Of a DNA stretch of 64,000 bases, positions 38,630 through 41,585 are shown piece after piece. The position numbers and the translations under genes are program-made. Below the pieces are notes generated by a model that saw only the letters and a program-made list of their open reading frames with translations, searched no databases and was not told where the DNA came from. The stretch's first letter is position 1. Each line of letters begins with the position of its first letter. Source of the DNA: Halohasta litorea (GTDB lineage Archaea; Halobacteriota; Halobacteria; Halobacteriales; Haloferacaceae); assembly GCF_024494645.1 (NCBI RefSeq), contig NZ_JANHDJ010000002.1:310001-374000 (forward strand), written 5' to 3'.

Positions 38630-39676
38630 TCAGTAGCCGCGGGAGATCAGGTAGTCGGCCAGATCGGCCAGCAGGTCGCTGGCCTCGTTGTCGGGCAGGA
38701 CGTCTAGTCGATCCTTGCTCTGGGCGGTGAGTTCTTCGGCCATCTCGCGGGCGTAGTCGATGCTGCCGACCGCCTCCAGTTTCGACACCGCTGCGTCGAT
38801 CTCGGCTTCGGTGACCGTCTCGACGGTCGACTCATCGAGCAGCCCATCGACGTCGACGCCCTGCTGGCGGGCGTGGAGCGTAATGAGGGTCTCCTTGTTC
38901 TCGACGAGATCCGAGCCGCGCTGTTTGCCGAGGTCTTCGCTCGGAACCGTTAGGTCCAGGACGTCGTCCTGAATCTGGAAGGCCTTGCCCGACTCGACGC
39001 CGTAGCTGTACATCGCGTCGACGACCTCGTCGTCGGCGTCCAACAGGACTGCCGGAATCGCCGCGGCCGCACCGTAGAGGACGGCTGTCTTCCGTTCGAC
39101 CATATCCAGATACTCCTCGGGCGTCAGGTCGTCCCGGGACTCGAAGGCGACATCCAGCGACTGGCCCTCGCAGATCTTCGTACAGGTCGAGGAGAGCAGC
39201 CGCATCGCCTCCAAGGTGTTTTCGGGGTTGCCGCCGACATCGGCCATGATCTCGAAGGCCTTCGAGTAGAGCGTATCGCCCGCCAGAATCGCGGTCGAGG
39301 TGTCGTACTCGTTGTGGACCGACTGGACGCCGCGGCGGAGGTCGTCGTCGTCCATGATGTCGTCGTGGATCAGCGTGAACGACTGGATGACCTCGATCGA
39401 GACCGCCGCGGCCATCAGGTCGACCTCACCGCCGGTGACGGTGGGGAACGCCCGGTAGTCGGCCCCGCTGGCCTCGACATCCGCCAGCGCCTCGCCGACC
39501 AGCAGCGCGGCGGTGGGTCGGAGCCGCTTGCCACCGGCCTCCAGGATGTACCGGGAGGCCTCGTACAGTCGTTCGGGCTCGGCGAGCGGCAGATCGATAT
39601 CGATCGCGTCGTTGACCAGCTCGCGGCGCTGGCCGATCGCGGCGAGCACTCGCTTTTCGGTCGCGTTTTGGGTCAT
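38630..39676 (-). CDS. idsA: Geranylgeranyl/geranylfarnesyl diphosphate synthase
   Basis: 348 residues, trans-isoprenyl diphosphate synthase for archaeol lipids. First Asp-rich motif LIHDDIMDDDDLRRG and second FQIQDDVLDLT, with substrate-binding GGKRLRPT. Translation start overlaps the stop of rnj (TAATG), so it is second in an rnj-idsA operon. This gene order occurs in other haloarchaea, where isopentenyl phosphate kinase and IPP isomerase genes commonly sit upstream; they are not upstream here. Confidence 0.94.
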   Translation of the reverse strand: MTQNATEKRVLAAIGQRRELVNDAIDIDLPLAEPERLYEASRYILEAGGKRLRPTAALLVGEALADVEASGADYRAFPTVTGGEVDLMAAAVSIEVIQSFTLIHDDIMDDDDLRRGVQSVHNEYDTSTAILAGDTLYSKAFEIMADVGGNPENTLEAMRLLSSTCTKICEGQSLDVAFESRDDLTPEEYLDMVERKTAVLYGAAAAIPAVLLDADDEVVDAMYSYGVESGKAFQIQDDVLDLTVPSEDLGKQRGSDLVENKETLITLHARQQGVDVDGLLDESTVETVTEAEIDAAVSKLEAVGSIDYAREMAEELTAQSKDRLDVLPDNEASDLLADLADYLISRGY

Positions 39677-41028
39677 TACTCTACCAACTGGATGAGATTG
39701 CCGTTGCGTGTGACGTGCAGGTCACGACCCAGTTCGTAGCCCTGGCTCTCACAGAGATCGACGTACGGCGAGAACCCCTTGAGATCCTGGTGGGCCGGGA
39801 TGACATGTTCGGGCTGGAGCGCTTGGAGCATCTCGAAATGGCCCTCTTCGCGGAGGTGACCCGAGACGTGGATCTCGTCGTAGATGCGTGCGCCCTGCAT
39901 CCGCAGGAGTCGTTCGGACTGGTAGCGCTGGCCCTCGTTGGTCGGCTCGGGGATCACCCGCGCCGAGAAGATCACCTTGTCGCCCTCGTCGAGTTCGTAG
40001 GGGGTCTCGCCGCGACCCATCCGGGTGAGCATCGCCCGTGGCTCGCCCTGGTGGCCGGTGACGATCGGCAGGAAGTTCTCTTTGCCCTCCTTCATGATCC
40101 GTTTAAACGTGCGGTCGACCGATTTCCGGTGGCCATACATCCCGAGGTCGTCGGGGAACTCAACGAAGTTGAGGCGTTCGGCCGTCCCGGAGTATTTCTC
40201 CATCGACCGACCCAAGAGGACTGGCTGTCGGCCGATGTCCTTGGCGAACTCGACGAGGGACTTCACGCGGGCGATGTGGCTCGAAAAGGTGGTCGCCACG
40301 ATCCCGCCGTCGTAGTCCTCGATCGACTGCATTACGTCCTTGAGGTGCTCGCGGGCGACCGACTCGGAGGGCGTCCGACCCTTCTTTCCAGCGTTGGTAC
40401 AGTCCTCGATGTAGGCCAACACACCATTGCCTTCGCGGCCGATCTCGCGGAACCGCTCCATGTCGATGGGGTCGCCGATAACCGGGGTATGGTCCATCCG
40501 CTTGTCGAGCCCGTAGACGACTGCGCCTTCTGGGGTGTGGAGGACCGGATTGATCGCGTCGATCACCGAGTGGGTGACGTTGACGAATTCGAGTTCGACC
40601 TGGCCGCTGGAGCCGATCGACATCGTTTCCCCGGCCTCCATCTCGACGAGGTCGTTGTCAACGGTGAACTTCGACTCGTCGTCGACCTCCTGTTCGACCA
40701 GCGCGAGGGTGAACGGGGTGGCGACGATCGGGGCGTTGTAGCGGTGGGCGAGCTTCGAGATTGCCCCGATGTGGTCGAGGTGACCGTGGGTCGGGACGAT
40801 CGCTTTGACGTCGCCTTCGAGCTCGCTCATCACCCGATCGTCGGGGATCGCACCCATATCGATCAGGTCGAGACTGTGCATCTGTTCGGTGCGGACGTCG
40901 TCGTGGATCAACACCTGCGAGAGGTTGAGACCCATATCGAAGACGACGACGTCGTCGCCCGCACGGACGGCCGTCATCTGGCGACCGACCTCCTCATATC
41001 CGCCGACTGTTGCGATTTCGATTTCCAT
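39676..41028 (-). CDS. rnj: Archaeal ribonuclease J
   Basis: 450 residues, metallo-beta-lactamase/beta-CASP 5'-to-3' exoribonuclease. Metal site in [11 protein letters not shown]; beta-CASP motifs [13 protein letters not shown] and [12 protein letters not shown]. Start [10 protein letters not shown] set because longer in-frame starts would lie inside a predicted leader. A GGA ribosome-binding-like sequence is about ten bases before the ATG and directly follows a stable stem-loop (41041-41081). Upstream TATA-like element at 41215-41224. Possibly autoregulated (inference). Confidence 0.95.
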
Positions 41029-41040
41029 AGTTTCAAATCC

Positions 41041-41171
41041 TGCACAGCTCGCCCACACCGTTCGGTGTAGCCTGCTGTGCATCGAGCCGCGTGTAGGGGC
41101 CAAGCCCCCGGCGTACTGCGCGTCGGTGTGGCCCCGCTGTGTCGGACGGCCGCGACCGGCCATCGCCGACA
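41041..41171 (-). ncRNA. Structured 5' leader of rnj (candidate regulatory RNA)
   Basis: Three stems in 131 bases: (1) TGCACAGC (41041-41048) with GCTGTGCA (41074-41081), enclosing ACACC/GGTGT (41055-41059 with 41064-41068); (2) GCCG and GGGGC with GCCCC and CGGC (41086-41112); (3) TGTCGG with CCGACA (41140-41145, 41166-41171) enclosing GGCCG/CGGCC (41148-41161). Stem 1 is 12 bases from the rnj start codon. Read on the minus strand it is the mRNA leader. The 320-base gap to lsm holds no gene apart from this element and the two promoters. Confidence 0.5.
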
Positions 41172-41214
41172 GTTACCCGCGGGTTCGTTGGTGGATGGGC
41201 GTTGGACGTGCGGT

Positions 41215-41224
41215 GTTAAAAACT
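41215..41224 (-). promoter_or_regulatory. TATA-like element of rnj
   Basis: AGTTTTTAAC on the minus strand; predicts transcription start near 41193 and a leader of about 165 bases, in contrast with the leaderless norm in the window. Confidence 0.5.
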
Positions 41225-41316
41225 ACGTGGGTTCTCACAGTTCCGTCGACGGTGTTTGTGTCGTCTCAGGCCGCCGTATTCATCAGTCAGCGTGGGTGTG
41301 TCGCACTGTTCCGGTA

Positions 41317-41348: not shown

Positions 41349-41585
41349 ATGAGTGGACGACCCCTCGATGTTCTTGAGGCGTCTCTGAACGAGACGGTAA
41401 CCGTCGAACTGAAGGATGGCACGGCCGCTGTCGGCATCCTCTCGGGCTACGACCAGCACATGAACGTCGTACTCGACGCTCCGGGCGAGGTCGAGGAAAG
41501 CGAAGCCCTCGGCGATCTCACGGTCGACTCGGTCGAAGACACAACCATTATACGCGGCGATAACGTCGTCTCGATAACTGTATGA
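41349..41585 (+). CDS. lsm: Sm-like archaeal protein (Lsm)
   Basis: 78 residues forming one Sm fold: Sm1 motif [24 protein letters not shown] and Sm2 motif [10 protein letters not shown]. Forms heptameric rings binding U-rich RNA. The longer in-frame frame begins upstream of the promoter and is rejected. The stop overlaps the L37e start by ATGA; lsm-rpl37e is a conserved archaeal pair. Head-to-head with rnj. Confidence 0.95.

Follow-up and report, generated by a model that had tools for sequence, protein, structure and literature searches.

A conserved, probably cis-acting structured leader upstream of RNase J genes in Halobacteria

In E. coli, feedback in cis through the rne 5′ UTR is established, and in Synechocystis the rne 5′ UTR is cleaved by RNase E (PMC10989929). 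The leader upstream of the RNase J gene (rnj) of Halohasta litorea resembles this system in being a long cis leader placed before the gene for an essential RNA-decay nuclease. However, the rnj leader is archaeal, precedes a β-CASP enzyme (RNase J) instead of RNase E, and is about 165 nt in length compared with 361–622 nt; no common sequence or fold was found between the two, and feedback at rnj is a proposal. RNase Y of Bacillus subtilis is likewise a decay nuclease that regulates the lifetime of its own mRNA, but there the control works through cleavage, part of it within ~100 nt of the beginning of the reading frame, and no archaeal structured leader is involved (PMC10303841).

Conserved cis structured leaders do occur in archaea, Halobacteria included, upstream of ribosomal protein operons (S15, eL15, and L4), where the likely ligand is the ribosomal protein; none of those described lies before rnj (Eckert and Weinberg, 2020; PMC7247131). 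The box H/ACA hairpins HP1 and HP2 are also conserved in halobacteria (PMC2584109), whereas the rnj leader is without H/ACA features and is tied to the rnj start codon. A box H/ACA guide, suggested by three stems and a UACA after hairpin P3, was considered for the leader and rejected. An ACA lies near the scanned end of P3 in only 6 of 68 leaders, counted with a pattern that picked up other sites as well. In addition, the 5′ strand of the internal loop of hairpin P4, which would form the guide pocket, is variable, and no pocket pairs with the known haloarchaeal 23S targets (E. coli positions 1915/1917 and 2584–2586) beyond 3 + 3 nt. A search of the whole window against Rfam 15 at the gathering score returned no family, and at E ≤ 1 none of the 4227 families, leader or riboswitch, matched the rnj locus. 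The rnj leader is unmentioned in the literature searched, the scope of which did not extend to a 2017 screen of 224 candidate structured RNAs or to the pseudouridine-guide paper. A structured leader on a decay nuclease is known from bacteria, and the archaeal, RNase J-linked form appears to be new.

Promoter and fold of the rnj leader

The window, which is the whole stretch of 64,000 nucleotides of H. litorea DNA analyzed here, contains rnj on the minus strand with its start codon at 41028 (Table 1). The product belongs to the RNase J β-CASP family (TIGR00649, score above cut-off), its best PDB relatives are RNase J chains, and the nearest named relative found is that of Halohasta salina (95% protein identity). 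A first-pass annotation of the sequence had placed a TATA-like element well upstream of this start codon, and TTTTTAAC is indeed found at 41222–41215 on the minus strand, immediately preceded by AACCCACGTAG as the BRE. Among 81 relatives that keep the CCCGCGGG motif at the 5′ end of the leader, AACCC and TTTTTA are near-invariant, carrying 1.3–2 bits per position, compared with mostly less than 0.4 bits upstream; the 50 nt upstream of the BRE lack conservation in the same relatives. The distance from the first T of the TATA box to CCCGCGGG is 36–39 nt in 81 of 81 scored leaders. This fixed spacing, together with the promoter position, leads to an expected transcript start near 41193 and a leader of about 165 nt; the promoter-to-AUG distance is conserved, while the 5′ end itself is predicted. 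The promoter is unusually conserved in the window (41223–41233) and in relatives, with AACCC invariant or nearly so, and a GTA-containing element is conserved at about +16 to +21 after the TATA box.

A leader of this length is uncommon in Haloferax volcanii. According to its map of transcript starts, 72% of coding transcripts are leaderless, leaders longer than 150 nt were found in only 97 coding transcripts, and translational control by structured leaders was judged not typical of haloarchaea (PMC4983044). The tested H. volcanii termination site A1, with 11% termination and an AGATC motif, is contained in HVO_2724 (PMC7237163). AGATC occurs at about +341 of the Haloferax rnj coding sequence (L038, L041, and L045), and early termination inside rnj may be an extra layer of control.

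Table 1. Features of the rnj locus in window coordinates.
Feature	Positions	Strand	Basis
RNase J gene rnj (450 aa), putatively controlled gene	39676..41028	−	TIGR00649 and PDB relatives
idsA-type prenyl synthase gene, next after rnj	38630–39676		
rnj promoter, BRE + TATA box (AACCCACGTAG-TTTTTAAC)	41215..41233	−	Near-invariance in 81 relatives
lsm gene, divergent neighbor, outside the leader element	41349..41585	+	
Structured rnj 5′ leader RNA (start predicted at ~41193)	41029..41193	−	Fold, covariance-model match, conservation
CCCGCGGG, P1 5′ strand, running into the GGGUAA junction	41176..41183	−	
Closing helix P1	41182–41178 paired with 41091–41087	−	Fold
GGGUAA junction	41178–41173	−	
Hairpin P2 (UGUCGG/CCGACA + upper stem)	41140..41171	−	Fold; covariation
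Hairpin P3 (GGGGCCA/UGGCCCC), with CCGACG...CGCCGG as conserved core at its apex	41096..41135	−	Fold; covariation
CGCGG, P1 3′ strand	41087..41091	−	Fold; own-versus-swapped pairing; kept across a ~290-nt insertion in G005/G108
3′ hairpin (UGCACAGC/GCUGUGCA + upper stem)	41041..41081	−	Fold; genus-level, at the place of P4 in other genera
Unpaired GGAUUUGAAACU between the 3′ hairpin and AUG	41029..41040	−	

The first-pass annotation had also described three successive stems between promoter and gene, and these are recovered in the fold as P2, P3, and the 3′ hairpin, although a fourth, closing helix (P1) had been overlooked. The stem it had singled out, of 8 + 5 bp and ending 12 nt from the AUG, is present as 8 bp plus an upper stem, whereas the conserved core of the leader is the upstream P1/P2/P3 part. 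The GGA beside this stem, noted as resembling a ribosome-binding site, exists at 41040–41038. As a Shine-Dalgarno sequence it was rejected for being unconserved in relatives, most of which read ...AAACC-AUG. Constitutive sequestration of the AUG by the leader was likewise set aside, as predicted accessibility is mixed and the AUG region is not clearly sequestered.

The comparison with shuffled sequences that the annotation had proposed bears out a structured region: positions 41200–41029 fold at −85.6 kcal/mol against −70.2 ± 4.2 for shuffled versions (z −3.7), and none of 200 shuffles folds as well. For the predicted leader (41193–41029) z is −4.4. Of 300 pieces of 165 nt taken at random from the window, only one folds that well, and z −3 is attained by 1.3%. 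The covariance model described below matches the window leader over 174 nt (E 7.6e-12). Across 79 leaders, however, the mean single-sequence fold z is only −1.2, mildly better than shuffled, and thus the structure argument is carried by covariation.

Conservation, covariation, and distribution

Leaders collected from 79 relatives have a common architecture consisting of P1, a GGGYAA junction, P2, a mismatch-rich P3, and a near-invariant P3 apex, and in most genera the hairpin P4 stands beside the AUG. The core consensus reads UACCA-n-CCCGCGGG-YAA-[P2]-GCGGGG-nCCAGCGA-CCGACG-YGCUGYAAGA-CGCCGGGGC-CGGUGGCCCCC in its 5′ part and, after CGGUGGCCCCC, n-GGAUUU-nnGUGAGCA-n-GCCAC-n-GUGGC-n-UUUCAAUGCUC-n-AAACC-AUG. 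GGAUUU in the window leader corresponds to the conserved (A/C)UUU linker that follows P1 in the relatives.

The covariance model (R1) was built for P2, P3, and P4 from 17 leaders aligned with MAFFT and did not include P1. Since the 79 leaders were collected and aligned by this model, their alignment is fitted to it and leans towards structure; the MAFFT alignment, P1 (outside the model), and controls with slid pairings serve as independent checks. In the MAFFT alignment of 17 leaders, 98.1% of cells are paired and the covariation score is 0.135 compared with 0.085 for shuffled alignments, none of 500 of which scored as high. In the alignment of 79 leaders, 93.5% of cells are paired (78.5% shuffled), two-sided changes occur in 26 of 31 pairs (17.1 shuffled) and in 267 cells (64.8 shuffled), and covariation scores 0.326, whereas shuffled alignments score 0.115 (0 of 500 as high) and slid controls 0.018–0.049; being drawn from related sequences, such counts overstate the number of independent events. 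All seven modeled pairs of P2 show two-sided changes, while the innermost P3 helix (CCG.CG/CG.CGG) is near-invariant and gives no covariation evidence by itself. RNAalifold missed most stems on a first MAFFT alignment of 33 sequences, in which P2 and P3 of Natrialbaceae were misaligned, and alignment by the covariance model fixed this. Covariation and conservation in relatives, the lack of which had been named in the first-pass annotation as telling against a leader, came out strongly positive. Together with the fold in the window, they bear out a structured leader before an archaeal rnj. On this comparative evidence, the rnj leader is almost certainly a real conserved RNA structure. Given also its placement before RNase J genes and its lack of an Rfam match, of coding sequence, and of H/ACA features, it is taken to be a previously undescribed leader RNA acting in cis.

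In P1, the CCCGCGGG motif at the 5′ end pairs with a 3′ strand that directly precedes the conserved UUU. Depending on the genus, this strand reads CGGG or GCGGG, or else CCCGC or CCGCGG, the palindrome being used in different registers. Paired with their own partners, the P1 strands reach −14.1 kcal/mol, compared with −13.56 ± 0.16 kcal/mol for swapped partners and −13.94 kcal/mol for the best of 200 permutations. An AT-rich insertion of ~290 nt lies between P3 and the P1 3′ strand in L203, L204, and L205 (genomes G005, G113, and G108). Across this insertion, GCUCCCG and CGGGAGC are still complementary in G005 and G108, and in G113 AUGCUCCCG stands opposite CGGGGCAU as the P1 strands. The long-range P1 is part of the predicted optimum in 49 of 59 scored leaders. 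A rival helix, CCCGC:GCGGG, formed directly around P2, belongs to the optimum in 7 of 59 leaders, and forcing it costs ~4 kcal/mol on average. It is possible, given these predicted energies, that the 5′ CCCGC pairs alternatively with the P1 3′ strand or with the GCGGG after P2 and so forms a two-state switch.

The part of the leader nearest the start codon is more variable. In most genera P4 consists of an outer GAGCA/UGCUC and an inner GCCAC/GUGGC helix shortly before the AUG. The genus in the window has the UGCACAGC/GCUGUGCA hairpin at this place, with an identical stem in L003 and a GAGCAG/CUGCUC version in L004. In two close relatives (L005 and L035) the 3′ hairpin is absent and the leader ends ...AUUUGAUACAU-AUG. 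Judged from these relatives, the start-codon-proximal stem of 8 + 5 bp is a genus-level feature and the least conserved part of the leader.

Of 148 genomes of the family, 147 have RNase J genes, as do all 145 genomes sampled from the class. Within the family the leader model matches 113 of the 148 genomes, representing 25 of 28 genera, and in leaders of genus g14 that it leaves unmatched the motifs can still be recognized by eye (L133, L147, and L148). Among the 145 Halobacteria genomes it yields 96 matches in 94 genomes, covering 43 of 58 genera; in a phylum sample of 197 genomes, 19 have matches, all in the order of the window and none outside it. Directly upstream of an RNase J gene lie 92 of the 96 class-wide matches: 88 by coordinates, with the model ending at a fixed position in the first codons in 83 of 88, and 4 further ones upstream of RNase J genes that were found by tblastn and are missing from the compared protein-search rows. 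The remaining four comprise three fragments of 26–38 nt and one weak match (E 0.001) without RNase J within 3 kb. This isolated match, L183 (G168:C113:77476-77596), contains GACCUGCCCG..CGACGUGCUGCCACACGUCGGGGCGGGUC and is probably due to chance. No credible free-standing copy was found by the class-wide model search in the 94 genomes with matches. Downstream, idsA nearly always follows rnj in relatives. On the other side, lsm-rpl37e adjoins rnj in only some genera and is missing there in Natrinema, Natronococcus, and further relatives whose rnj retains the same leader. The leader thus follows rnj and not its upstream neighbor, and its assignment to the divergent lsm gene was rejected, since lsm is lost in many relatives in which the leader stays. 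As far as these genomes indicate, the leader is found exclusively where RNase J transcription units begin, and it very probably acts in cis on rnj.

Haloarculaceae-type rnj leaders are without the CCCGCGGG core; they open with UAACCGAG-nnn-ACGGYCGYCC and close with CUCGG a short way upstream of the AUG, and CCGAG/CUCGG is invariant in 31 leaders. Their ACGGYCGYCC hairpin covaries (24 two-sided cells in the 31 leaders, compared with a shuffled mean of 7.5 and maximum of 15), and the 12 tested give single-sequence fold z values of −1.4 to −6.5. A paralogue, rnj2, is found in several families and has a third kind of leader, CCGAAACACGCGUUGUCCCC...GGGAUCG-CUCUGAUCGG, with CCGA/UCGG and GUCCC/GGGAY as closing pairs in 18 aligned leaders. 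The second RNase J of H. litorea is such an rnj2 (L112; G000:C28:137089-138429; 77% identical); its leader differs in sequence and, folded together with 30 nt of coding sequence, is predicted to form a long rod of −77.6 kcal/mol, a value without a shuffle control. Since both the Haloarculaceae-type and the rnj2 leaders are closed near the AUG, each RNase J clade, by this comparison, is equipped with its own leader closed near the AUG. The three leader families have no common sequence core and so show no one motif by which RNase J could recognize them all. That Haloarculaceae rnj and rnj2 also have leaders, each of a different sequence, suggests that such control has been selected for strongly and repeatedly.

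Possible functions of the rnj leader

In H. volcanii, an organism without an exosome, aRNase J is essential; alone it is a homodimer with endonuclease activity, which is restrained by RecJ3/4, and RecJ3 and RecJ4 occur in complex with RNase J (PMC10470531). An enzyme that is essential and acts as an endonuclease when alone, in an organism lacking an exosome, plausibly needs its dosage controlled. In the leader, the long-range helix P1 closes a junction with P2 and P3, and in most genera P4 comes after it, next to the start codon. It is proposed that RNase J, or its complex with RecJ3/RecJ4, recognizes this structure and acts where the RNA is exposed, either at the 5′ terminus or at the conserved UUU linker; the linker, unpaired and lying between P1 and P4, would be an obvious target. 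Surplus RNase J would then shorten the lifetime of its own mRNA, and output would be limited by negative feedback, as for RNase E through the rne 5′ UTR. Feedback control with RNase J itself as the sensor of the leader appears the likeliest function, because the leader occurs only before RNase J genes, because leaders of similar design are seen again in other RNase J clades, and because RNase J is essential and restrained by RecJ3/4, with bacterial RNase E and RNase Y both using feedback; at this stage its chance is judged to be about even. The chain as a whole, from a cis-acting structured rnj leader to the limitation of RNase J by negative feedback, may equally well prove right or wrong. Also in Halobacteria, the S15 leader lies ahead of rpsO-recJ operons (PMC7247131), and the two partner nucleases, RecJ and RNase J, may both stand behind structured leaders.

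The main rival to RNase J feedback is a leader sensed by some other factor, such as a ribosomal or RNA-binding protein, a riboswitch ligand, or salt or temperature, with the level of RNase J following. The P3 apex (CCGACG-YGCUGYAAGA-CGCCGGGGC) and the GGGYAA junction are near-invariant in sequence, beyond what pairing needs, as would be expected of a binding site, which at the P3 apex may just as well be one for another protein or a small ligand. Protein-binding leaders are known in archaea, for example the S15 leader of Halobacteria (PMC7247131). Ligand-sensing leaders, in contrast, often serve several genes, whereas this one is found only before RNase J genes, and it matches nothing in Rfam; sensing by another factor is therefore regarded as rather unlikely, though well ahead of the readings that follow. 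High conservation and compact structure would also suit a trans-acting non-coding RNA, released from the rnj leader or encoded at the same place, and potential non-coding RNAs own 2898 of 4749 mapped start sites in H. volcanii (PMC4983044). Such an RNA is improbable here given that no credible free-standing copy occurs in 94 genomes, that in 83 of 88 coordinate-matched cases the model runs right up to the rnj AUG, that H/ACA guide features are absent, and that the paralogue rnj2 has its own leader.

A passive, unregulated role is slightly less probable again. P1 starts ~10 nt from the predicted 5′ end, and aRNase J enzymes are typically 5′–3′ exonucleases (PMC10470531), so that the leader might act as a cap-like structure shielding the rnj mRNA from 5′–3′ decay, or aid its translation; mere protection, however, would not need near-invariant loops and junctions or a leader restricted to RNase J. 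The leader could instead be coding sequence, with an in-frame ATG at 41163 beginning a 45-aa N-terminal extension of RNase J, as the window does contain an open frame of 495 aa. This can be practically dismissed: in several relatives the open frame is only 451 aa, too short to include an extension; differences in leader length fall in all three frames; it is pairing that is conserved; and homology to solved RNase J structures begins at residue 2 of the shorter-start protein.

Returning to feedback by RNase J, a wider form of the proposal extends it to nearly all haloarchaeal RNase J genes, paralogues included. These would carry at least three families of closed leaders that sense RNase J activity, so that its level is set by feedback, with CCCGC acting as a two-state switch; the arrangement would be an independently evolved archaeal counterpart of RNase E autoregulation. 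This wider form is put forward tentatively, with somewhat less than an even chance of being correct. To our knowledge, built-in RNA controls are hardly known in Archaea. The folded rnj leader most likely allows the cell to meter the amount of RNase J; as a leader RNA it extends across a whole archaeal class and belongs to the essential nuclease of organisms that have no exosome. It provides a concrete element for H. volcanii genetics, through which homeostatic control of archaeal RNA decay, as it exists in bacteria, becomes directly testable.
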